DNA from: Winogradskyella sp.
GTDB taxonomy: Bacteria; Bacteroidota; Bacteroidia; Flavobacteriales; Flavobacteriaceae
Assembly: GCF_013042245.1 (NCBI RefSeq)
Contig: NZ_JABDQL010000113.1
Span: 1 to 35,495, forward strand
Length of the DNA stretch: 35,495 nt
Direction: 5' to 3'
Shown: in pieces, positions 14,456-32,038 of the stretch
Layout: each line of letters starts with the position of its first letter
Numbering within the stretch: position 1 is the stretch's first letter
Program-made: the position numbers and the translations under genes
Notes under the pieces: model-generated
What the model was told of the DNA's origin: nothing
The model's input: the letters and a program-made list of their open reading frames with translations, nothing else
The model's database searches: none

Positions 14456-14539
14456 GGAGAGGTGCCAGAGTGGTAATGGAGCAGATTGCTAATCTGTCAA
14501 CGCGCAAGTGTTGCCCGGGTTCGAATCCCGGTCTCTCCG
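14456..14539 (+). tRNA. tRNA-Ser (anticodon GCT)
   Basis: An 84-base type II tRNA with a long variable arm. The acceptor stem GGAGAGG pairs with TCTCTCC (one G-T pair). The anticodon loop TTGCTAA lies in a 5-bp stem, and a canonical GGTTCGAATCC T-loop is present. It reads AGC and AGU. The 3' CCA is not encoded. Confidence 0.95.
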
Positions 14540-14582
14540 CAGAATTTTGTTTACAGAAATAAACAAATTTAGATAATCTATT

Positions 14583-14657
14583 CGGGGTGTAGCGTAGCCC
14601 GGTTATCGCGCCACGTTTGGGACGTGGAGGCCGCAGGTTCGAATCCTGCCACCCCGA
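14583..14657 (+). tRNA. tRNA-Pro (anticodon TGG)
   Basis: A 75-base cloverleaf with a perfect acceptor stem CGGGGTG/CACCCCG, anticodon stem CCACG/CGTGG and loop TTTGGGA. The C1-G72 pair is the usual proline identity pair in bacteria. CCA is not encoded. Confidence 0.95.
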
Positions 14658-14673
14658 CAAAAATAAGAGTTAC

Positions 14674-14747
14674 GGGCTCGTAGCTCAGCTGGATAGAGCA
14701 CCTCCCTTCTAAGGAGGCGGTCATAGGTTCGAATCCTATCGGGCTCA
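14674..14747 (+). tRNA. tRNA-Arg (anticodon TCT)
   Basis: A 74-base cloverleaf. The acceptor GGGCTCG pairs with CGGGCTC through two G-T pairs, the anticodon stem is CCTCC/GGAGG and the loop CTTCTAA. It reads AGA and AGG. CCA is not encoded. It is the last gene of the operon. Confidence 0.95.
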
Positions 14748-14748
14748 C

Positions 14749-14781
14749 AAAAAGTTTTACTAGAAATAGTAAGACTTTTTT
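14749..14781 (+). terminator. Rho-independent terminator of the tRNA operon
   Basis: AAAAAGTTTTACTA (14749-14762) pairs with TAGTAAGACTTTTTT (14767 onward) across a GAAA loop, with one G-T pair, and ends in a T tract. It begins two bases after tRNA-Arg. Confidence 0.85.
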
Positions 14782-14798
14782 GTTTTTAGTACCTTTTT

Positions 14799-15338
14799 TT
14801 ATTTCTTAAGTTCCTTTTTTACTACAAGAGATCCAAGTGTTACGCCTTGGTATATTTTAACGTTTCTACCAATTGTTGTAATTTTACCAATGACTATACG
14901 AGTTATTTGATGTGCATATTCGGTCATTAATCTAGGTTTTAGAGGTATCCCTAATAAATAGAATTCTCCGACCATTCTGTAAACTGAAATAGAGAAAAAG
15001 CCAGGATAAGCCAAATATACCTCGTTAATGGATTCTGCCGCTGAGTCATTTTTATATATTGAAGTGGCATCTTTTTTAAAGCTACAAAATAGGTTTGGAA
15101 TAATGTTGGTAAAATCTTCCTAAGTTTTGCAAGGTTTACCTTTTATTTCTGGACAGGCTAAATCTCTGATTTTAATAAAAAGTACTTCAAGTTCTTCTAA
15201 TGATTTCGTTGTATCAGTTTCACTATCAAAAAAAGAATTGAAAAGTCATTGCGTAAATCGCTGGCATTCTTTCTTTAGAGTAGAAGAAATTTTAATTTCC
15301 TGTTTCTGATTATTAATATTACTAATTAATTCTATTGA
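14799..15338 (-). pseudogene. cysE: Degraded serine O-acetyltransferase (CysE/EpsC type)
   Basis: Read on the minus strand, the frame gives recognisable pieces of an EpsC-type serine acetyltransferase, the enzyme that makes O-acetylserine for cysteine synthesis. The order is: a region around SFFDSDTETTKSLEELEVLF, a TAG at 15120-15122 where homologues usually have Trp, the block ending SINEVYLAYPGFFSISVYRM, then PRLMTEYAHQ, VKIYQGVTLG and SLVVKKELKK. A TGA at 15246-15248 breaks the frame further upstream. Between EYAHQITR and the TTIGRN-VKIYQG block about 20 residues of the left-handed beta-helix are missing, including the IHPGATIG and FFIDHGTG segments with the catalytic histidine. The C terminus (about 60-80 residues) is lost at the TAA at 14799. 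Three lesion types make it a clear pseudogene. Identification is from motif memory, not a search. Confidence 0.82.
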
Positions 15339-15380
15339 TTATCCTTTTTTAATCATAAATTGAAAAATATAATGATTTCT

Positions 15381-15520
15381 CTGTCATTTCGAGCGTGGTC
15401 ACAGAGCATATTCGATATGTAGTCGAGAAATTTAAAGTATTGTTTTACAAAGCATTTCGACTTTAGTTTATGCTGAGCACAGTCGAAGTACTCAGCATAA
15501 ACTAAAGTCGAAGTACTCAA
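15381..15520. repeat. Palindromic interspersed repeat (REP/MITE-like)
   Basis: The stretch starts with a CTGTCATTTCGAGC-type motif, common in scattered flavobacterial repeats, and contains a long inverted repeat: 15454-15477 pairs with 15491-15514, 24 bp with a single G-T pair, around a 13-base loop. A 14-base direct repeat, AGTCGAAGTACTCA, occurs at 15481-15494 and 15507-15520. It has no coding capacity. It looks like one or two copies of a nonautonomous palindromic unit that landed in the decayed DNA upstream of the repair island. Confidence 0.7.
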
Positions 15521-15752: not shown

Positions 15753-16790
15753 ATGTCAAAAGAGAAACAGCTTATAAAATTTACCAAAAAGGGAATCTTT
15801 TGTCCTAAAGGTAAATTTTATTTAGATCCTTGGTATCCTGTAGATTACGCTATCATTTCTCATGGCCATGCAGACCATGCTCGTTGGGGAATGAAACGGT
15901 ATTTGTGTACTGATGATTCTAAAGCTATTTTACAACATCGCTTGGGCGCAGACATATCAATTGAAAGTATACCATACGATGCATCTTTGACTATAAATGG
16001 CGTCAAAGTCTCCTTTCACCCAGCAGGACATGTCATTGGCTCAGCTCAAATACGATTAGAGTATAAAGGTTATATTGTGGTATTTTCTGGTGATTATAAA
16101 ACACAACCCGACTTTATAAGCACACCATTTGAACCTATTAAATGTAATACGTTTATTACTGAGAGTACCTTTGGGTTACCTATTTATAATTGGAAATCAG
16201 AAAATACACTTCAAAACCAATTGCAATCATGGGTAAAGACCAACCAAGCTAACAATAGAACATCAGTATTTTTAGGATATTCCTTAGGAAAAGCGCAGCG
16301 TTTAATGTCTATATTAGATGGTTGTGATGAAATTTACGTACACAGGGCTATTCATAATTTAAATGAGGCTATTTTTAGTTCTGGAATAGAACTGCCAGAG
16401 ACCAAATTGTGGTCAGCAGACTTAGATAAGAAAACACTTCAGAATAAAATCATTATCGCACCACCTGCGTTGTTAGGTTCAAGAATGTTAAAGCGCATTC
16501 CAAATGTAGCCACTGCCATATGTTCTGGTTGGATGCAAATACGAGGTAATAGACGTTGGCAAGCCGTTGATGCTGGTTTTGTAGTTAGTGACCATGCCGA
16601 TTGGAATGGTTTAATTTCAACTGTAAAAGCCACTGAAGCCCAACAGGTGTATGTTACTCACGGCTCACAAGCAGTTTTTTCAAAATATTTGAATGAAATA
16701 GGAATCAAAGCAGACGAACTCAAAACTGAATATGGTGATGAAGCTTTGGCAAAAGCAGAAAAGGAAACTGAAAACATAGAAACCAAATGA
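15753..16790 (+). CDS. Ligase-associated DNA exonuclease (metallo-beta-lactamase/beta-CASP fold)
   Basis: 345 residues. The metal-binding motif HGHADH lies at residues 37-42, as in beta-CASP nucleases of the CPSF73/SNM1 group; HPAGHVIGSAQ and FSGDYK supply the following metal ligands, and a late histidine sits in VSDHADWNG. The family is found next to the ATP-dependent ligase and Lhr-like helicase genes in many bacteria and is annotated as a ligase-associated putative exonuclease. It should trim DNA ends before ligation, which is an inference from fold and context. It starts the operon: its last four bases overlap the ATG of the ligase gene, so translation is coupled. Confidence 0.92.
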   Translation: MSKEKQLIKFTKKGIFCPKGKFYLDPWYPVDYAIISHGHADHARWGMKRYLCTDDSKAILQHRLGADISIESIPYDASLTINGVKVSFHPAGHVIGSAQIRLEYKGYIVVFSGDYKTQPDFISTPFEPIKCNTFITESTFGLPIYNWKSENTLQNQLQSWVKTNQANNRTSVFLGYSLGKAQRLMSILDGCDEIYVHRAIHNLNEAIFSSGIELPETKLWSADLDKKTLQNKIIIAPPALLGSRMLKRIPNVATAICSGWMQIRGNRRWQAVDAGFVVSDHADWNGLISTVKATEAQQVYVTHGSQAVFSKYLNEIGIKADELKTEYGDEALAKAEKETENIETK

Positions 16791-18376
16791 AGCAGTTTTC
16801 AGATTTAATAAGTGCTATAGAAATAACCAATAAAACGAATGCTAAGATTGATGCTTTGGTACATTATTTTAGTACAGCACCAGATAAAGATAAACTATGG
16901 CTGATTGCCTTGTTCACTGGTAAACGTCCATCACGGCCAGTTAAAACAACTTTGATGAAAGAATGGTGCATGGAATTGACCAATATTTCGGAATGGTTGT
17001 TTTTAGAAAGTTACAGCACCGTTGGTGATTTAGGGGAAACCTTAGCGTTGTTATTGCCAGAACCCACATATAATTTAGATTTAAGTTTAAACGAATGGAT
17101 GACCCAACTAAAAGCCTTAAAACCCAAATCTGATGAAGAAAAAAAAGCTTTCGTTTTGAAAGCCTGGAGAGGATTAGAACAGCAAGAACGTTTGATTTTT
17201 AATAAACTCATTGGTGGTAGTTTTAGAATTGGTGTTTCTAAAAAGACATTGGTAAATGCCTTAGCAAAACTGACAAATATCGATGCCAACCAGCTTATGC
17301 ATAGTATCATTGGAAATTGGGAAGTCCATTCCATTGCTTTCGAAGAACTCGTTCATGGTAAACACATCAATTATGATAATTCAAAGCCTTATCCGTTTTG
17401 TCTAGCTTATGCTTTAGAAAAAAATTTATCTGAATTAGGAGAACCTGATGATTGGATGGTAGAGCAAAAATGGGATGGCATTCGTGGACAAATCGTAAAG
17501 CGTAATAATGAAATTTATATTTGGTCACGAGGTGAAGAGTTGGTAACTAAACAATTCCCAGAATTGGTGGAGGCGATGTCTAATTTTAAGAATGATTTTG
17601 TTATTGATGGTGAAATTTTGGCCATGAAAGACAATGATATATTGCTCTTCAATGATTTACAAAAACGCTTGAATCGCAAAAACGTCACAAAAAAACTCTT
17701 GGAAGAGGTTCCTATTGGTTTTAAGGCCTATGATATTTTAGAATATAATGGTAATGATCTTAGGGAACTTCCTTTTGAAGAACGACGTCGACGTTTAGAA
17801 TTCATGTTTAATTTGTTAGCGTTGCCAGAGCATATTGAATTATCATTTTTAGTTGATTTCAAAGATTGGAAAGAGCTTTATACGATTAGGGATAATTCGA
17901 GAACGATAAATAGTGAAGGTCTAATGCTTAAACAGAAGAAGTCTCCATACCATACGGGTCGAAAAAAAGGCGATTGGTGGAAATGGAAACTAGATCCATT
18001 AACCATCGATGCTGTTATGATTTATGCTCAAAAAGGTAGTGGTAGACGCAGTTCTAAATACACAGACTATACCTTTGCAGTTAAGAAAGACGATGCTTTG
18101 GTCACTGTGGCAAAAGCTTATTCTGGATTAACAGATAAAGAAATCACCGAAATATCCCAATGGGTAAATAAGAATGCCATTGAAAAATTCGGACCTGTGA
18201 GAACTGTAAAACCAGAATTGGTTTTTGAAATTGCCTTTGAAGGCATTGCCTTAAGTAAACGTCACAAATCTGGTGTAGCTTTAAGATTTCCGAGGATTTC
18301 TAGGTGGCGCCGAGATAAGCCAGTTGACGAAATCGATACGATCGAAACTGTTAAACAACTAATTACAGCACCTTGA
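16787..18376 (+). CDS. ATP-dependent DNA ligase (repair-type)
   Basis: 529 residues: an N-terminal DNA-binding domain (about 1-200), a nucleotidyltransferase domain (about 210-410) and an OB domain to the end. Motif I is KWDG with the adenylated lysine K228. Other ligase motifs are seen: VIDGEI (motif III), GLMLK (motif IV) and WWKWK (motif V). No polymerase or nuclease domain of the LigD kind is fused. Bacteria replicate with the NAD-dependent LigA, so this ATP-dependent enzyme should act in repair. It overlaps the exonuclease gene upstream (ATGA, 4 bp) and the helicase gene downstream (TTGA, 4 bp). Confidence 0.95.
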   Translation: MKQFSDLISAIEITNKTNAKIDALVHYFSTAPDKDKLWLIALFTGKRPSRPVKTTLMKEWCMELTNISEWLFLESYSTVGDLGETLALLLPEPTYNLDLSLNEWMTQLKALKPKSDEEKKAFVLKAWRGLEQQERLIFNKLIGGSFRIGVSKKTLVNALAKLTNIDANQLMHSIIGNWEVHSIAFEELVHGKHINYDNSKPYPFCLAYALEKNLSELGEPDDWMVEQKWDGIRGQIVKRNNEIYIWSRGEELVTKQFPELVEAMSNFKNDFVIDGEILAMKDNDILLFNDLQKRLNRKNVTKKLLEEVPIGFKAYDILEYNGNDLRELPFEERRRRLEFMFNLLALPEHIELSFLVDFKDWKELYTIRDNSRTINSEGLMLKQKKSPYHTGRKKGDWWKWKLDPLTIDAVMIYAQKGSGRRSSKYTDYTFAVKKDDALVTVAKAYSGLTDKEITEISQWVNKNAIEKFGPVRTVKPELVFEIAFEGIALSKRHKSGVALRFPRISRWRRDKPVDEIDTIETVKQLITAP

Positions 18377-20826
18377 GTTCATTTAGAGACAGCAACGGTT
18401 TACGTATCATTAATAATTGGATGGCAGAAAAAGGTCATGCACCGTTTCCGTTTCAGATGCACACTTGGCAACGCTATGCTAATGGCTATTCAGGTATGGT
18501 TGTAGCACCAACTGGTTTTGGAAAGACCTTTTCTGTTTTCTTAGCGATTGTCATAGACTATCTCAATCATCCTGAAAAGTATCCAAAAGGCTTAAAATTA
18601 CTATGGATAAGTCCGCTGCGCTCATTAGCAAAAGACTTAGCTAAAGCGATGACAGAAGCAGTTGACGATATAGGCTTAGATTGGTCAGTGCAGGTTAGAA
18701 ATGGCGATACACCAACGGCAACACGTCGCAAACAAGAACGCTTAATGCCAGATGTGTTATTAACCACGCCTGAAACCATGCACTTGTTATTTTCACAAAA
18801 AAAAAATTCGAGATGGTTTAAAAATGTAAAATGTGTTGCTATTGACGAGTGGCACGAATTATTGGGAAATAAACGAGGCGTGCTTACCGAGTTAGCCATT
18901 TCCCAATTGAGACATTATGCGCCTAAACTGAAAATTTGGGGAATTACCGCAACCATAGGAAATTTAGAAGAAGCCAAATCTATATTACTACCATATGCTG
19001 ATTTAAAAGTAACTCAAGTCACGGCAAAGCAAAAGAAGACATTAGACATCATTTCTGTGCTTCCAGATGAAATTGAAGTGTTGCCTTGGGCAGGTCATTT
19101 AGGGACTAAGATGGTGGATAAGGTATTGCCAATTATAGCATCCAATACCACAACTTTAATTTTTACAAATACTAGAGGACAAGCTGAATTGTGGTATCAA
19201 GTACTATTGAACGCACAACCTGATTTAGCAGGTCTCTTGGCGATTCATCATGGGTCAATCGATAAGAAACTTCGCAATTGGATTGAAGATAATATTGCTT
19301 CAGGTTATCTCAAAGCAGTAGTTTGTACGTCTTCACTTGATTTGGGTGTGGACTTTAAACCTGTGGATTGTGTCATTCAGATTGGCTCAGTAAAAGGAAT
19401 CGCACGATTTATGCAACGTGCTGGTCGTAGTGGACATTCACCCTTCGAACGTTCTAAGATTTACTTTGTACCTACTCATTCTCTGGAATTGGTGGAAGTG
19501 TCTGCCTTAAAAGAAGCTATCAAGGACAAACAAATGGAAACAAGAGACCCAATGGTGTTGACTTTTGATGTTTTGGTACAGTTTATGGTCACTTTAGCGG
19601 TTGGAAAAGGATTTGATTCTGATGCTTTGTTTCATCGTATTCAACAAGTACACGCCTTTCAGTATTTAACAAAAGACGATTGGCAATGGTGTTTGCATTT
19701 TATCACAAAAGGAGGAAAGACGCTACATTCTTATGAAGAATTCCATAAAGTCATCTTAAAAGAAGATGGAATTTATAAAGTGAAAAGTCGCCGGATTAGT
19801 ATGCTGCACCGCATGAATATTGGAGCGATTGTTAGCGAAGTGAATCTAAAGGTAAAGTATTTTTCAGGTGGATATATTGGAATGATTGAAGAGTTTTTTG
19901 TGTCGAAGCTAAAGCCTGGTGAAAGTTTTATTTTGGCTGGTCGTATTTTAGAATTAGTTCAGATTAAAGACATGACGGTTCTAGTAAGACGAAGTAAAGC
20001 TAAGAAAGCCGTATCACCAAGTTGGTTAGGTGGCCGATTGCCGTTGACCTCACATTTGAGCCATTATTTAAGATTAAAATTATCAGATGCTTTAGAACCA
20101 GGACGTTTAGAAAAGGAACTTCGGTTTTTAAACCCATTGGTGAGCAGGCAAGATAAGCATTCGCATATACCCAAGGCTAATGAGTTTTTGGTTGAATTGA
20201 TTGAAACTAGAGACGGTCATCATTTGTTTATGTATCCTTTTGAAGGGCGTTTGGTACATGAGGTGTTTTCGGCATTAATTGCCTATCGAATTAGTAAATT
20301 AAAACCTTTAACATTTACTATAGCTATGAATGATTATGGGTTTGAATTGCTGAGCGACCAACCTATTCCTGTTGATGATTGTAACATTAAGCAATTGCTA
20401 ACCAAAGATAATCTTATGGATGATGTCATTGCAAGTATTAATGCCTCGGAAATGGCATCAAGAAAATTCAGGGATGTTGCCGTAATAGCTGGGTTGGTTG
20501 TGCAATCACAGCCAGGAACACGAAAGACTAGCAAAAGTTTACAGTCTTCATCAGGACTTATATTTCGAGTTTTGGAAGATTATGAACCAGATAATTTATT
20601 ATTGCGTCAAGCCTATACAGAAGTATTTAATCAGCAGTTAGAAGAAGCAAGATTACAACAAGCATTTGAGCGGATTTCTAAAAGTAAAATTATAGTAAAG
20701 CGTTCTAAATCATTTACACCGTTGAGCTTTCCGCTTAAAGTTGACAGCCTGCGAGGTACAATGAGTAATGAGAATCTAGACAAGCGAATACAGCGAATCA
20801 AAGAACAAGTATATAAGATAGATTAG
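18373..20826 (+). CDS. Ligase-associated DEXH-box helicase (Lhr-like)
   Basis: 817 residues. Walker A is APTGFGKT (K51), the DExH box is DEWH (residues 158-161), the SAT-like motif appears as GITATIG, and motif VI is MQRAGRSGHS. The region after the two RecA-like domains matches the winged-helix and barrel layout of the Lhr core, a 3'-to-5' single-strand DNA translocase. The likely start is TTG at 18373, which overlaps the ligase stop as TTGA; the first in-frame ATG is 48 bases on at 18421 and would drop the N-terminal segment ahead of the helicase motif. Unwinding of damaged ends for the exonuclease, ligase and phosphoesterase is inferred from the operon. Confidence 0.93.
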   Translation: MSSFRDSNGLRIINNWMAEKGHAPFPFQMHTWQRYANGYSGMVVAPTGFGKTFSVFLAIVIDYLNHPEKYPKGLKLLWISPLRSLAKDLAKAMTEAVDDIGLDWSVQVRNGDTPTATRRKQERLMPDVLLTTPETMHLLFSQKKNSRWFKNVKCVAIDEWHELLGNKRGVLTELAISQLRHYAPKLKIWGITATIGNLEEAKSILLPYADLKVTQVTAKQKKTLDIISVLPDEIEVLPWAGHLGTKMVDKVLPIIASNTTTLIFTNTRGQAELWYQVLLNAQPDLAGLLAIHHGSIDKKLRNWIEDNIASGYLKAVVCTSSLDLGVDFKPVDCVIQIGSVKGIARFMQRAGRSGHSPFERSKIYFVPTHSLELVEVSALKEAIKDKQMETRDPMVLTFDVLVQFMVTLAVGKGFDSDALFHRIQQVHAFQYLTKDDWQWCLHFITKGGKTLHSYEEFHKVILKEDGIYKVKSRRISMLHRMNIGAIVSEVNLKVKYFSGGYIGMIEEFFVSKLKPGESFILAGRILELVQIKDMTVLVRRSKAKKAVSPSWLGGRLPLTSHLSHYLRLKLSDALEPGRLEKELRFLNPLVSRQDKHSHIPKANEFLVELIETRDGHHLFMYPFEGRLVHEVFSALIAYRISKLKPLTFTIAMNDYGFELLSDQPIPVDDCNIKQLLTKDNLMDDVIASINASEMASRKFRDVAVIAGLVVQSQPGTRKTSKSLQSSSGLIFRVLEDYEPDNLLLRQAYTEVFNQQLEEARLQQAFERISKSKIIVKRSKSFTPLSFPLKVDSLRGTMSNENLDKRIQRIKEQVYKID

Positions 20827-20921
20827 TTATTTTCGAAATAAGGTCAGCGATTGAGAAATCATATAAAATGATTATTATTAACCTCTTGTAAGATGTCTCA
20901 GGTGCATTCGACATAACAAAA

Positions 20922-21569
20922 ATGAATATTGTAACAGAATATATTACCATAAAAAACGAGGTCTTGACCTTAACAAATCAACGTGCGTTGTATTGGGAAG
21001 CTAAGGATGCTTTAATATTATCAGATATTCATATAGGTAAAACGGCTCATTTTCGACGACATGGTATACCAATGCCAGATGAGATACTTCAAAAAGATTT
21101 AGAACGATTAAAAAAAATGATTAATCATTTTAATGTTGGGCAATTATTAATAGTTGGCGACTTATTTCATGCTGAAACAAATAGTGATATGTTGACTTTT
21201 AAATCATGGTTGAAACAATTTGAAAATTTAAAACTAATACTAATCAAAGGAAATCATGATAGGCAATCACAGCGATTAATGGATGATTTAAATATAGAAG
21301 TTATAAACAAATTAGATTTAGGGTCGTTTACTTTGATTCATGAACATATAGAAAATGACTTAGATTTATTTACAATTTCTGGGCATACACATCCTGGAGT
21401 TCTTATAAAAGGCAAAGGAAAACAGAAACTCAAATTACCCTGTTACCAAGTAAATTCAAAACAATTGATTTTACCAGCGTTTAGTCTATTTACAGGGCTT
21501 AACATCAATTCAAAGCCAGATGATGCTATCTGCTATGCCTTTACAGAATCTTCGATATTTAAATTTTAG
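20922..21569 (+). CDS. pdeM: Ligase-associated DNA damage response endonuclease PdeM (metallophosphoesterase)
   Basis: 215 residues with all calcineurin-like phosphoesterase motifs: DIH (D35, H37), GD (D80), GNHD (N111, H112, D113), a lone His in LIHEH, and GHTH (H155, H157), so the two-metal site is complete. Characterised homologues (MPE of Pseudomonas putida) are manganese-dependent DNA phosphodiesterases linked to Lhr. It follows the helicase gene after a 95-bp gap, longer than the overlaps elsewhere in the cluster, so it may have some separate control. Its 3' end overlaps the convergent methyltransferase gene by 11 bp. Confidence 0.93.
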   Translation: MNIVTEYITIKNEVLTLTNQRALYWEAKDALILSDIHIGKTAHFRRHGIPMPDEILQKDLERLKKMINHFNVGQLLIVGDLFHAETNSDMLTFKSWLKQFENLKLILIKGNHDRQSQRLMDDLNIEVINKLDLGSFTLIHEHIENDLDLFTISGHTHPGVLIKGKGKQKLKLPCYQVNSKQLILPAFSLFTGLNINSKPDDAICYAFTESSIFKF

Positions 21570-27607: not shown

Positions 27608-30600
27608 ATCAAAAGAGTACTCAAAATAATAGGAAAAATAGTAGCTATCATTGTGCTGCTTTTTATTATTTTGGTATTAATTCTTTCTATACCGGCAGTG
27701 CAAACTCGCTTGGGTAAATATGCAACCAAACTTATAAATAATGATTATAAAACAAATATTAATATAGATAGAATTGGGATTCAGTTTAATGCTGATGTTG
27801 AGCTTAAGGATATTTTAATAAAAGACTACAATTTAGATACGCTTTTCAGCATCAAAGAGCTTAATACTTCTATTATTAGTATAAATAATCTTCTAAACAA
27901 TAAATTTACTTTTGGAGATGTAGATATTGAAGATTTAGTATTTAATCTTAAAACATACAAAGGTAAAACAGATACCAATTTAGATATATTTGTAGACCGT
28001 TTTGAAGACGATAACCCTCGGCAAGGCCCAAGTACTTTTTTATTATCATCCAGTGATGTGTCTTTGTATAATAGTACCTTTAGACTTATTGATGAAAATA
28101 AGGAAACACCTCAAATATTAGAATTTACCGAACTTAATGCTAATACTACAGACTTTGTAATCAATGGTCCTGAAGTAAGAACTCGAATAAATAAATTTGG
28201 TTTTCTTGATGCTCGTGGCGTGAGAGTTGATAACCTCATGGCCAATTTTGAGTACACACTAACGCAGATGGTTTTTGACCAACTGAATATTAAAACCAAA
28301 GCTTCAATTCTTGACGGTAATCTTCGTTTTGATTATGAGCGCGAGGATTTTAAAACATTTACAGATAGCGTAAAAGTTTATGCTAACTTTAAAGACTCTT
28401 ATATACAATTGAGTGAATTAAATACCTTCTATAACGAATTTGGAACAAATCAGAAAGCTAGTCTTAACGTAGAGTTGTCAGGTACACTAAATAATCTTAA
28501 AGCAAATAACCTTAATGTAAGTACAACCAGAAATACCAAAATAATAGGCAATATTACATTTAAAAACCTTTTCAATGCTGCAGAGGATAATTTCGTACTT
28601 GACGGGCGTTACAGATATTTATCGTCTAATTACAAAGATTTAACCAAACTTTTGCCAAACGTATTAGGAAATTCTATTCCTTCTTTTTTTTCTAAAGTTG
28701 GAAATTTTAGACTCACAGGAACTTCGGTAATAACAAACAAAGTTATAGATGCAGATTTAGACATGACTACCGAACTTGGTTTTGTAAAATCTAACCTTAA
28801 ACTCACCAATATTGGAAACATTGACAATGCTAATTATGAAGGTAATATCATTCTTGAAGATTTTAATATTGGTATTTTGCTCAATGACCCATTGGTTGTA
28901 GACACATCATTAAATCTTGATGTAAGAGGAAAAAGCTTTAAACTAGATAATTTAGAAACTAATATAAAAGGGAATGTTTCTTATTTAGATTATAATGGCT
29001 ATCGGTATTCTGGTATTGATGTATCTGGAGATGTTGGGAAAAATATCTTTAACGGTAAATTAAATACCAAAGACCCAAATATTAGCATGGACTTTAATGG
29101 TCTTGCAGATATGTCGCAAGAGATTAAAAAATTTGATTTTAAAGCTAATGTTGCTTATGCCAATTTAAAAGCTTTAAATTTTATAGAAAGAGATAGTATT
29201 TCAGAGTTTAGAGGTATAGTAGATATGGCTGTAACAGGCTCTAACTACGATAACCTTCGTGGAGAAATAGATGTTAAAAACACTATTTACAAAAATCAAG
29301 ATAAAACTTATGATTTTAAAGACTTCTCTATAGTTTCTAATTTCGAAGGTGAAGTAAGACGTATAGAAATTAATTCCCCTGATATTATTAGTGGCGAGGT
29401 TAAAGGAAAATTTAAAATTGAAGAGATTGTTAAACTAGCCGAAAACTCTCTAGGAAGTATTTACACCAACTATAAACCGCATGAAATTTCTGAAGGACAG
29501 TATTTAAATTTTAATTTTAGAATTTATAATCAGATTGCAGCCGTATTTGATAAAAACTTAAACCTAGCGCCAAACACAAATGTAAAGGGGCGAATAGAAA
29601 CAGATGAAAAAGGGTTTGAGTTAGAGTTTAATTCGCCAAAGATATCATTCAAAGATTATGTGGCTACTAACCTTAATTTGGAGTTAGATAACAGTAATCC
29701 TGTCTATAACACCTTTTTTGAAGTTGACAAGCTAGATTCTGATATTTATAATATTTCAGACTTTAATCTTATTAATGTAACTAAAAGAGATACACTTTTT
29801 ATAAAATCAGAATTTAAAGGCGGCGCGAACAATACCGATAATTATAATATGAGCTTGTTCTACACTATAACCGAGGAGAATAAATCCGTCGTTGGTTTTC
29901 AGAAATCTGATTTTAAATTTAAAGGCTATGATTGGTTTATAAATTTCAATAAAGATTCATTTAATAAAATAACTTTTGACAGAAATTTTAATGATTTCAA
30001 AATTGAAGATATTAGAGTTAATCAAGGTGAAGAAGAGATTTTACTCGCAGGTGTTTTAAAAGACTCAACGTACAAAGATTTAAACTTAGACTTCAAGAAC
30101 GTGCAGTTAGCCAAAATAACACCAAGGATAGATAGTTTGGCTCTTGCTGGTCGAGTCGATGGAAAGTTAGCACTTTTGCAAAATGATGGAGTTTATCTTC
30201 CAAAATCAGATATTGAAATTGAGCAATTTAACGTTAATCAGTATAATTTAGGAAACTTAAAAGCCATCATTGAAGGTGACAATTCCTTAACCAAATATAA
30301 TGTTGATGTAGAACTGCAAAATACAAATATAAAAACCTTAGATATTCAAGGCTTTGTAGACGTTAACAAGAGTAGACCAATTATTGATGTAGATATTGCC
30401 TTTGATGACTTTTTAATAGACCCGCTTAATCCTTTAGGTGAGGGTGTAATTAGTAATATCCGTGGATTAGTTTCAGGAAATGCAGAAGTTACAGGTAATC
30501 TTAATAAACCAAGCATAGATGGCGAATTATTGCTGGATAAAGCAGGTCTAGGTATTCCATATCTTAATGTAGATTATAGCTTTGATTTTGATTCTAGAGT

Positions 30601-32038
30601 TACTCTAAAGAAACAGCAATTTATATTCAATAATGTAGCCATGACGGATTCAGAGTATTTTTCTAGAGGGTTCTTAAATGGATACATTGAACACAATAAC
30701 TTTAGCGATTGGCAACTAGGTTTAGATTTGACAACCGATAGACTTTTAGTTTTAAATACTGAAGAATCTGAAGATGAGTTATATTACGGTACAGCCTTTG
30801 TTTCTGGCGATGCAAATATAGAAGGATACACAGACAATTTAACCATCTATGTAGACGGAACAACAGAAGATGGTACGGTATTTAATATACCGTTAAATGA
30901 CTCGGAAAGCTTCGGAGACAACTCTTATATAAAATTTCTAAGTCCTGAAGATAAACTAAGAAAAGCAGAAGGTGATTTGTCTACACAAACAGAAATAAAA
31001 GGATTAAATCTAGAATTTAATTTAGAAGTTACACCAGATGCTGAAATAGAAATTGTAATAGATAAAGAGTCCGGTAGCACCATAAAAGGACGTGGTAATG
31101 GAAATCTAGGGATTTATATTAATACCAATGGGAAGTTTGAAATGGTAGGTGATTTTATAGTATCAGAAGGAACATATAAATTTAAATACGGCGCTATTAT
31201 AGAAAAATTATTTACAGTTGAAGAAGGAGGCTATATCAATTGGGATGGTGAGCCACTTAATGCAGAAATTAGTTTGAAAGCATTATACTCAACAACAGCA
31301 AATCCTTCTGCATTATTAGATGCACCAATTAACAGAAGTATTCCCGTTAACTTAGAGATTAACCTTACAGGACGCTTAGAAAAACCAGACCCAGATTTTG
31401 CATTTGAGTTTCCTAACGTAGATTCTGCAATAAAATCCGAATTGGATTATAGACTATCTGCAAAAGAGCAAAGAAGTAATCAAGCCATATTCCTTTTAAC
31501 CTCTGGAAGTTTCTTCGGTGGTTCGCTAGATTTTACAGGAACAATTTCAGAACGTATTAACGGAATTATTGGCAGTATCCTAGGTAATGACAATGATAAC
31601 TTTAAAGTTGGCTTAGATTTGGACTTAGCGCAAAACAATCCAAATTTCGAAACTGAGAGTCGTGTTGGTATAACTCTAGAAACAAAACTTTCAGACAAAG
31701 TAATAATTAATGGAAAAGTTGGTGTTCCATTCGGAAGCACAACTCAAACCACAATTGCTGGTGATGTACAAATAGATTGGCTTCTGAATGATGAGGGAAC
31801 TTTACGGGCAACAGTCTTCAATAGAGAAAATAATATTCAGAATTTTGGAGACCAAATAGGTTTTACCCAAGGCTTAGGTATCGCTTATGATGTAGAGTTT
31901 GACACTTTTAAAGAGTTAATCCGAAAAATCTTATCTGGTAAAAAGAAAGACGAGAAAGAAAAGAAAGAAAAAGATGAGAAAAATATGGTTGAAGAAGTTA
32001 TGCCAGACTTTATGTCGGTGAAAAAAAAACAAAATTGA
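27608..32038 (+). CDS. tamB: Translocation and assembly module protein TamB (DUF490)
   Basis: About 1476 residues if started at ATC 27608, 1461 if at GTG 27653. The N terminus is a short basic segment (KRVLKIIGK) and one membrane helix ending in IPAVQTRLGKYATK, as in TamB proteins. A very long beta-helical or AsmA/TamB-type periplasmic region follows, and the C-terminal about 400 residues contain the conserved DUF490 domain (GSTIKGRGNGNLGIYINTNG, GTYKFKYGAIIEKLF, RLSAKEQRSNQAIFLL). TamB spans the periplasm and works with an outer membrane Omp85 partner in lipid or protein transfer to the outer membrane. No ATG exists upstream: in-frame codons run back to a TAA at 27593-27595. GTG 27653 would start inside the membrane helix, so the basic segment argues for an earlier, non-ATG start (see findings). 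Confidence 0.9.
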   Translation: MKRVLKIIGKIVAIIVLLFIILVLILSIPAVQTRLGKYATKLINNDYKTNINIDRIGIQFNADVELKDILIKDYNLDTLFSIKELNTSIISINNLLNNKFTFGDVDIEDLVFNLKTYKGKTDTNLDIFVDRFEDDNPRQGPSTFLLSSSDVSLYNSTFRLIDENKETPQILEFTELNANTTDFVINGPEVRTRINKFGFLDARGVRVDNLMANFEYTLTQMVFDQLNIKTKASILDGNLRFDYEREDFKTFTDSVKVYANFKDSYIQLSELNTFYNEFGTNQKASLNVELSGTLNNLKANNLNVSTTRNTKIIGNITFKNLFNAAEDNFVLDGRYRYLSSNYKDLTKLLPNVLGNSIPSFFSKVGNFRLTGTSVITNKVIDADLDMTTELGFVKSNLKLTNIGNIDNANYEGNIILEDFNIGILLNDPLVVDTSLNLDVRGKSFKLDNLETNIKGNVSYLDYNGYRYSGIDVSGDVGKNIFNGKLNTKDPNISMDFNGLADMSQEIKKFDFKANVAYANLKALNFIERDSISEFRGIVDMAVTGSNYDNLRGEIDVKNTIYKNQDKTYDFKDFSIVSNFEGEVRRIEINSPDIISGEVKGKFKIEEIVKLAENSLGSIYTNYKPHEISEGQYLNFNFRIYNQIAAVFDKNLNLAPNTNVKGRIETDEKGFELEFNSPKISFKDYVATNLNLELDNSNPVYNTFFEVDKLDSDIYNISDFNLINVTKRDTLFIKSEFKGGANNTDNYNMSLFYTITEENKSVVGFQKSDFKFKGYDWFINFNKDSFNKITFDRNFNDFKIEDIRVNQGEEEILLAGVLKDSTYKDLNLDFKNVQLAKITPRIDSLALAGRVDGKLALLQNDGVYLPKSDIEIEQFNVNQYNLGNLKAIIEGDNSLTKYNVDVELQNTNIKTLDIQGFVDVNKSRPIIDVDIAFDDFLIDPLNPLGEGVISNIRGLVSGNAEVTGNLNKPSIDGELLLDKAGLGIPYLNVDYSFDFDSRVTLKKQQFIFNNVAMTDSEYFSRGFLNGYIEHNNFSDWQLGLDLTTDRLLVLNTEESEDELYYGTAFVSGDANIEGYTDNLTIYVDGTTEDGTVFNIPLNDSESFGDNSYIKFLSPEDKLRKAEGDLSTQTEIKGLNLEFNLEVTPDAEIEIVIDKESGSTIKGRGNGNLGIYINTNGKFEMVGDFIVSEGTYKFKYGAIIEKLFTVEEGGYINWDGEPLNAEISLKALYSTTANPSALLDAPINRSIPVNLEINLTGRLEKPDPDFAFEFPNVDSAIKSELDYRLSAKEQRSNQAIFLLTSGSFFGGSLDFTGTISERINGIIGSILGNDNDNFKVGLDLDLAQNNPNFETESRVGITLETKLSDKVIINGKVGVPFGSTTQTTIAGDVQIDWLLNDEGTLRATVFNRENNIQNFGDQIGFTQGLGIAYDVEFDTFKELIRKILSGKKKDEKEKKEKDEKNMVEEVMPDFMSVKKKQN

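Follow-up and report, generated by a model that had tools for sequence, protein, structure and literature searches.

Two separable gene pairs in the ligase-associated DNA damage response cluster of Winogradskyella and other Bacteroidota

The 35,495-nucleotide stretch of a marine Winogradskyella sp. analysed here (contig NZ_JABDQL010000113.1, C69 in our numbering; "the window" below) contains four consecutive genes that code for a beta-CASP nuclease, an ATP-dependent DNA ligase, an Lhr-Core type helicase and the metallophosphoesterase PdeM. Judged by their sequences, they almost certainly correspond to the ligase-associated DNA damage response cluster of the literature, which comprises LigB, Lhr-Core, MPE/PdeM and a beta-CASP nuclease, and the window copy is an ordinary member of this known system. 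Across Bacteroidota its genes go together in two pairs that can be separated, helicase with PdeM and exonuclease with ligase. Directly observed here are the gene content, the intact motifs, the two-pair co-occurrence and a correlated divergence of the four proteins. The pair structure, together with the dead ligases found in some relatives, is the part worth following, rather than the ordinary window copy.

Families were assigned with hmmscan against the curated NCBIfam cut-offs (three equivalog models and one hypoth_equivalog), and all four identities given in the original prediction held, with exact coordinates. The first gene (15753..16790, + strand, 345 amino acids) codes for the ligase-associated beta-CASP metallo-beta-lactamase nuclease (TIGR04122, 470.3 bits, cut-off 325) and is followed on the same strand by the LigB type ATP-dependent DNA ligase (16787..18376, 529 amino acids; TIGR04120, 623.7 bits, cut-off 400), the Lhr-Core type DEXH helicase (18373..20826, 817 amino acids; TIGR04121, 1110.1 bits, cut-off 850) and the PdeM/MPE metallophosphoesterase (20922..21569, 215 amino acids; TIGR04123, 221.6 bits, cut-off 150), a putative Mn-dependent single-stranded DNA endonuclease. 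Pfam recognized a metallo-beta-lactamase domain in the exonuclease, a calcineurin-like phosphoesterase in PdeM, and the N, M and C ligase domains plus weak RNA-ligase/capping overlaps in the ligase, on which no polymerase or LigD phosphoesterase domain was matched. The helicase contains DEAD (PF00270), Helicase_C (PF00271), WH_Lhr (PF19306) and DEAD_assoc (PF08494), corresponding to RecA1, RecA2, the winged helix and Domain 4. No HTH_42 tail was matched by Pfam in its 817 amino acids, which is the bLhr/Lhr-Core architecture, nor was the DUF1998/MZB zinc domain that marks MrfA/YprA (TIGR03817, 79.7 vs 874.1 bits). This helicase is 92% identical to its counterpart in Winogradskyella sp. KYW1333 and groups with Winogradskyella in a quick tree of the 62 rows with all four genes.

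The active sites are complete. In the exonuclease H39, D41, H42, H93, D114, E137, H281 and H303 were invariant in the 24 aligned sequences and H37 was found in 23 of them. In the exonuclease of genome G031 (L040:6578-7591), whose set is otherwise complete, a proline replaces this first metal-binding histidine. The ligase has an intact motif I with the catalytic lysine (KWDG), the helicase matches the structure of Lhr from Mycobacterium smegmatis (5v9x), and PdeM matches the nuclease MPE in the PDB (6nvp/6nvo, E 9e-35), the residues of its metal-site motifs (D35, H37, D80, N111, H112, H140, H155 and H157) being identical in each of 10 sequences aligned.

Co-occurrence was examined in a phylum sample of 198 Bacteroidota genomes (completeness filter 90, the window's own genome retained), with E-value thresholds of 1e-150 for the helicase, 1e-30 for PdeM, 1e-60 for the ligase and 1e-40 for the exonuclease. 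The counts take in matches below the curated cut-off (29 of 61 ligases and 28 of 66 exonucleases). Helicase was found in 53 genomes and PdeM in 55, with 53 in common, no helicase alone and two PdeM alone; similarly, the 61 genomes with ligase all contain the exonuclease, which was found without ligase in five more (66 in total). Across the pairs the ligase was absent from 8 helicase genomes and the helicase from 16 ligase genomes. The phi coefficients were 0.975 for helicase and PdeM and 0.944 for exonuclease and ligase, and 0.69-0.73 for the other four comparisons; as the genomes are not independent, p-values for these co-occurrences come out too small. All four genes were present in 45 genomes, exonuclease and ligase in 14, helicase and PdeM in 7 and the exonuclease alone in 4, while 125 had none; rarer patterns were exonuclease, ligase and PdeM (2 genomes) and exonuclease, helicase and PdeM (1 genome). 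Even the five exonucleases without ligase become fewer on reading their neighbours, since one lies beside a degenerate ligase (G180) and another is fused to a ligase shell (G165). Helicase and PdeM are apart in 17 of the 53 genomes, more than 20 kb on one contig in 9 and on separate contigs in 8, so physical linkage alone does not account for the pair pattern.

With the strict cut-offs, the 32 ligases were all in genomes with helicase and PdeM, as were 32 of the 38 exonucleases, the other six being in genomes without that pair. In a sample of 80 genomes of the same family, helicase and PdeM were found in the identical 27 genomes and ligase and exonuclease in an identical 24, all inside the 27, leaving three with helicase and PdeM alone. 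The original prediction had taken the four genes as one pathway. This stands within each pair, where co-occurrence is nearly perfect, and is weakened between the pairs, where it is looser; independent loss, which it had listed as evidence against itself, is seen in the 198 genomes between the pairs and hardly ever inside one. The parts of the papers available to us do not describe a two-pair pattern; the pairing of helicase and PdeM is itself in print (PMC8301817).

Several variants were noted along the way. Members of one family (f22; G105, G156, G187 and others) have a divergent exonuclease and ligase pair under both curated cut-offs, with or without helicase and PdeM, and in six genomes (G125, G156, G160, G206, G217 and G268) a pair of this type is separated from the helicase by ~10-18 kb. 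G081, G159, G201 and G216 carry an additional exonuclease paralogue (253-291 bits) at an unlinked site, and G178 has this type only. One helicase match (G073:C1:271327-273753) has one in-frame TAG stop. An apparent fusion of helicase and PdeM in G213 was discarded, as by its coordinates the long PdeM frame merely overlaps the helicase in another reading frame.

The gene order was followed in 80 named loci, which were the top-ranking ones among 591 confirmed stretches and all carry Bacteroidota titles; contig ends, a flank of 10 kb and a tblastn threshold of 1e-8 set the bounds of these counts. All four genes were found in identical order and strand in 46 of them. The remaining loci had helicase and PdeM (16), helicase only (12) or ligase and helicase (4), and single loci had ligase, helicase and PdeM, or exonuclease, ligase and helicase. 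A Comamonas plasmid has the same order (exonuclease, ligase, helicase, pdeM) with the ends overlapping and, because the 46 loci and this plasmid share it, the arrangement is far beyond chance. A Phyllobacterium plasmid has the two pairs as divergent units, and a Paraburkholderia plasmid stretch contains helicase and PdeM with the other pair absent within 6 kb. Over the 62 rows of complete sets, the protein distances of any two of the genes are correlated (Mantel r 0.861-0.964, none of 999 shuffles as high). PdeM diverges fastest, with a mean difference of 0.59 vs 0.41-0.43 for the others. In the quick tree the Flavobacteriaceae are split into two helicase clades, and the clade of the window is closer to members of the Weeksellaceae and Sphingobacteriaceae than to the second Flavobacteriaceae clade. 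By sequence, the sets look inherited together and perhaps also transferred together. There is no sign of plasmid or phage mobility for the window island itself, given that helicase relatives turned up at E 1e-60 on 28 of 72,556 plasmid records, every one with less than 60% identity, and that one partial helicase match was found among 50,697 phage records at E 1e-40.

The gene mfd was also considered as a companion. It is close to PdeM in 10 of 107 sequences (106 loci plus the window), a few kb away, and all ten belong to the 80-genome family sample (L034, L035, L036, L039, L041, L047, L048, L049, L051 and L053); it was found in none of the 80 named loci, nor in the window. In L039 and L041 it stays near PdeM even though PdeM is away from the helicase. 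Seven of the ten are in the second Flavobacteriaceae helicase clade, and the other three, with helicase and PdeM only, are outside the tree, their helicases being equally distant from that of the window (47-48%). Given this restriction to part of the Flavobacteriaceae we take the proximity as lineage synteny and do not consider Mfd a functional partner.

Six genomes (G085, G090, G095, G165, G180 and G184) have an exonuclease over the cut-off and no helicase or PdeM. All six keep their exonuclease motifs intact, and four have a ligase partner from which catalytic residues or the catalytic domain have been lost. In three of these the ligase homologue (L153:3121-4659, L154:2791-4377 and L142:5193-6830) has lost catalytic motifs: motif I reads HTYDG in place of K-x-D-G in G184 and LVEG in G180, and in G090 it reads KPSG, with the lysine retained, motifs III, IV and V gone, and ligase and exonuclease on separate contigs. 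In the fourth (G165, L141:3713-5326) one frame of 537 amino acids joins a full exonuclease to two downstream ligase fragments (profile positions 56-125 and 409-522), the DNA-binding and OB parts, with the nucleotidyltransferase domain missing. The exonuclease and C-terminal piece of this fusion are confirmed by NCBIfam and the N-terminal ligase piece comes from a custom profile only (domain E 3e-8); it is a single genome and could be an assembly error. In neither G085 nor G095 was a ligase found at E 1e-60 or recognized within ~4 kb on either side; a distant copy may lie elsewhere. A hidden helicase and PdeM pair was suspected upstream of the G180 exonuclease and rejected, as the frames of 825 and 229 amino acids there are KdpD- and KdpE-like.

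Motif I is present in 62 of 62 ligases from full sets, and in the phylum sample the lysine is found in 45 of 45 ligases of helicase genomes (G160 has N for D in KxDG). Without helicase, 14 of 17 ligases are intact (a tally that combines the 61 ligase genomes with G180 and excludes G165, which has no catalytic domain), so loss of the helicase pair alone does not kill the ligase. Degeneration was seen in two families, f11 and f23. As a rather doubtful speculation, the set could consist of two separable machines, helicase with PdeM and exonuclease with ligase; in the latter the ligase, besides or instead of sealing, would grip the DNA as a subunit of a beta-CASP nuclease that has an RNA-type active site. 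This would have been taken to the end in two lineages without helicase and PdeM, where a pseudo-ligase is left, in one case cut down to a DNA-binding-domain piece plus the OB part, in fusion with the nuclease.

For the complete set, as a member of the known damage-response system, we propose with about even confidence an opening and incision pair and a trimming and sealing pair, acting in this order. At damaged DNA the Lhr-Core helicase would load on a 3' single strand, move 3'-to-5' and open the duplex, and PdeM would cut the exposed single strand. The beta-CASP nuclease would then trim the end that is damaged or blocked, after which the gap would be filled by a housekeeping polymerase and sealed by the ATP ligase. 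The order of the steps, the lesion and the protein contacts are what we infer here; the lesions are probably of the cisplatin type, either bulky adducts or cross-links. Several points weigh against this proposal. The two pairs occur without each other, which means that a single fixed pathway of four steps cannot be obligatory; the exonuclease resembles RNA-processing beta-CASP enzymes more than SNM1, which weakens the DNA-trimming step; the dead ligases of some genomes without helicase and PdeM mean that sealing is not the sole use of the exonuclease and ligase pair; and the lesion class is drawn from the NCBI family names. The "end repair" of the original prediction was a guess; the NCBI names point to a cisplatin or DNA-damage response. 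Its statement that the pathway is unsettled agrees with the 2023 paper, which in the part available to us gives the precise role and target damage of the cluster as not known (PMC10140301).

Whether the nuclease acts on RNA or DNA bears on the trimming step. Motif C is a histidine in most beta-CASP families and a valine in the DNA-repair SNM1 group, according to the accessible text of PMC3095777, PMC7458816 and PMC4678830. In the first of these the histidine is read as a sign of an RNA substrate, and among the three papers one archaeal enzyme is judged likely RNA-specific for this reason. The window exonuclease has H303 at this position, invariant in the 24 sequences, and thus does not have the valine of SNM1/Artemis. 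Its AlphaFold model (predicted local distance difference test 88.1, 23 rows) has a beta-CASP fold nearest to archaeal CPSF, TTHA0252 and CPSF73/Ysh1 (Z 28.3-31.5, root-mean-square deviation 2.9-3.4 over 313-324 residues; rows 1-13 and 15-17). The best 50 structural-aligner rows, one per entry (Z 25-31.5), are all RNA-processing beta-CASP or type VII CRISPR proteins, and the best sequence matches are to YSH1/CPSF73, ahead of SNM1A. By motif C and by the predicted fold, the substrate could be RNA or DNA.

All this would fit an action on RNA-containing lesions or R-loops, in which the helicase would strip RNA from RNA:DNA hybrids, PdeM would nick the displaced strand, the beta-CASP RNase would remove RNA or ribonucleotide ends and the ligase would seal. 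The preference of M. smegmatis Lhr for RNA:DNA hybrids, given in the portion of PMC8301817 at hand, points the same way. We nevertheless regard this as unlikely. SNM1A is still a clear match by Foldseek (E 2e-13, yet not among the best 50 rows of the structural aligner) and by sequence (E 6e-7), and the NCBI family is named as a DNA-damage exonuclease. Furthermore, changing the valine of SNM1A to histidine left its DNA preference unaltered (PMC7458816 and PMC4678830, as far as their accessible text goes), which makes motif C weak evidence.

The damage-response reading has also to be set against Ku-independent joining of double-strand ends, hinted at in the title of the original prediction, for which a ligase, an end-processing nuclease and a helicase would be suitable parts. 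Ku gave no match to PF02735 in the host genome, which is 86% complete (one control genome matched as expected), and the ligase has no polymerase domain by Pfam; the statement of the original prediction that this is not ordinary Ku/LigD joining is thus supported. Among the 80 family genomes, however, Ku is present in six and five of these carry all four genes, a positive association (Fisher p 0.008, the genomes not being independent), so the cluster is not an apparent stand-in for Ku. This and the missing polymerase domain make end joining quite improbable. Anti-phage defence built on an Lhr-like helicase is scarcely credible: the helicase matches PADLOC models such as SngC, BrxHI and DpdJ, but these match helicases in general, exonuclease and ligase have no PADLOC family at E 0.001, PdeM has one weak match (PDC-S10, E 1e-6), the 13 neighbours look ordinary chromosomal with those downstream kept across Winogradskyella, and the phage records gave just the one partial match.

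The junctions between the genes were as tight as first described. Exonuclease and ligase overlap by 4 bp (ATGA, 16787..16790, + strand), as they do in six other Winogradskyella loci, and ligase and helicase overlap by 4 bp in TTGA (18373..18376, + strand), with a TTG start kept in 6 of 6 Winogradskyella loci compared. Joint expression of these first three genes, stated in the original prediction, would be consistent with such an arrangement. PdeM does follow, starting 95 bp past the helicase stop, compared with 0-1 bp in the six other Winogradskyella loci, and this 95-bp insert (20827..20921) is unique. It is not a dispersed repeat, as there is no second copy in the genome and merely two ~20-bp matches (E 0.2-0.4). 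Scans for promoters and terminators were set aside, given 38 promoter-like sites vs 32.5 expected by shuffling.

The host genome is a metagenome-assembled Winogradskyella genome of 2.58 Mb. Thirteen neighbours were tested; NCBIfam places most of them in ordinary chromosomal or type IX secretion system families, and 27653-32038 is the single one without any NCBIfam match. The neighbours downstream of the island are retained in other Winogradskyella loci. Upstream there is a cluster of tRNA-Ser, tRNA-Pro and tRNA-Arg (14456-14748), the DNA of which is in inverted orientation in the five Winogradskyella loci with upstream DNA compared. It is followed by a gene remnant on the - strand (14775-15350) with several stops and a weak Hexapep match (E 0.006, below cut-off), serine-acetyltransferase-like as judged by eye, and by a 30-nt inverted repeat (15451-15517) with 90% complementarity and a loop of 7 nt, located in noncoding DNA upstream of the exonuclease.

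The two-pair pattern allows a prediction of the mutants expected to be epistatic and sharpens the question of the role of this widespread cluster. The relatives with dead ligases and the fusion of exonuclease with a ligase shell point to a physical unit of exonuclease and ligase, and the RNA-type active site makes the label "DNA exonuclease" provisional.

Among known systems, non-homologous end joining by Ku and LigD has an ATP-dependent ligase in common with the island, but no Ku was detected in the host and the ligase has no fused polymerase or LigD phosphoesterase domain. MrfAB of Bacillus subtilis is a parallel in how it works, with a superfamily 2 helicase moving 3'-to-5' beside an exonuclease in the repair of mitomycin damage (available parts of PMC12458937 and PMC10889028); its helicase, however, is of another family, and its exonuclease MrfB is of the DEDDh and not the beta-CASP type. 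In the archaeal and bacterial Lhr and phosphoesterase systems covered by the accessible part of PMC8301817, helicase and MPE-type gene are paired as in the window, and 276 of 319 bacterial genomes have MPE in the vicinity of blhr. The archaeal neighbours there are TIGR00024-type, and the ligase and exonuclease pair is not described in that part. Against the NCBIfam set TIGR04120-TIGR04123 the window passes all four cut-offs with nothing divergent, whereas the divergent ligase and exonuclease pairs of other Bacteroidota families fall under the cut-off. The helicase and Mn-dependent nuclease activities of the Pseudomonas putida proteins were reportedly established by Ejaz and Shuman in 2018 and by Ejaz, Goldgur and Shuman in 2019. 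The window differs from the P. putida cluster in its PdeM, at ~124 bits to the P. putida MPE, and in the offset of pdeM by the insert. Nevertheless, the Lhr-Core/MPE/Exo/LigB cluster of P. putida is made of the same four families, its solved MPE and the mycobacterial Lhr match the window proteins, and the same operon is described, with the P. putida work cited, in the parts of PMC10140301 and PMC8301817 that we could consult.

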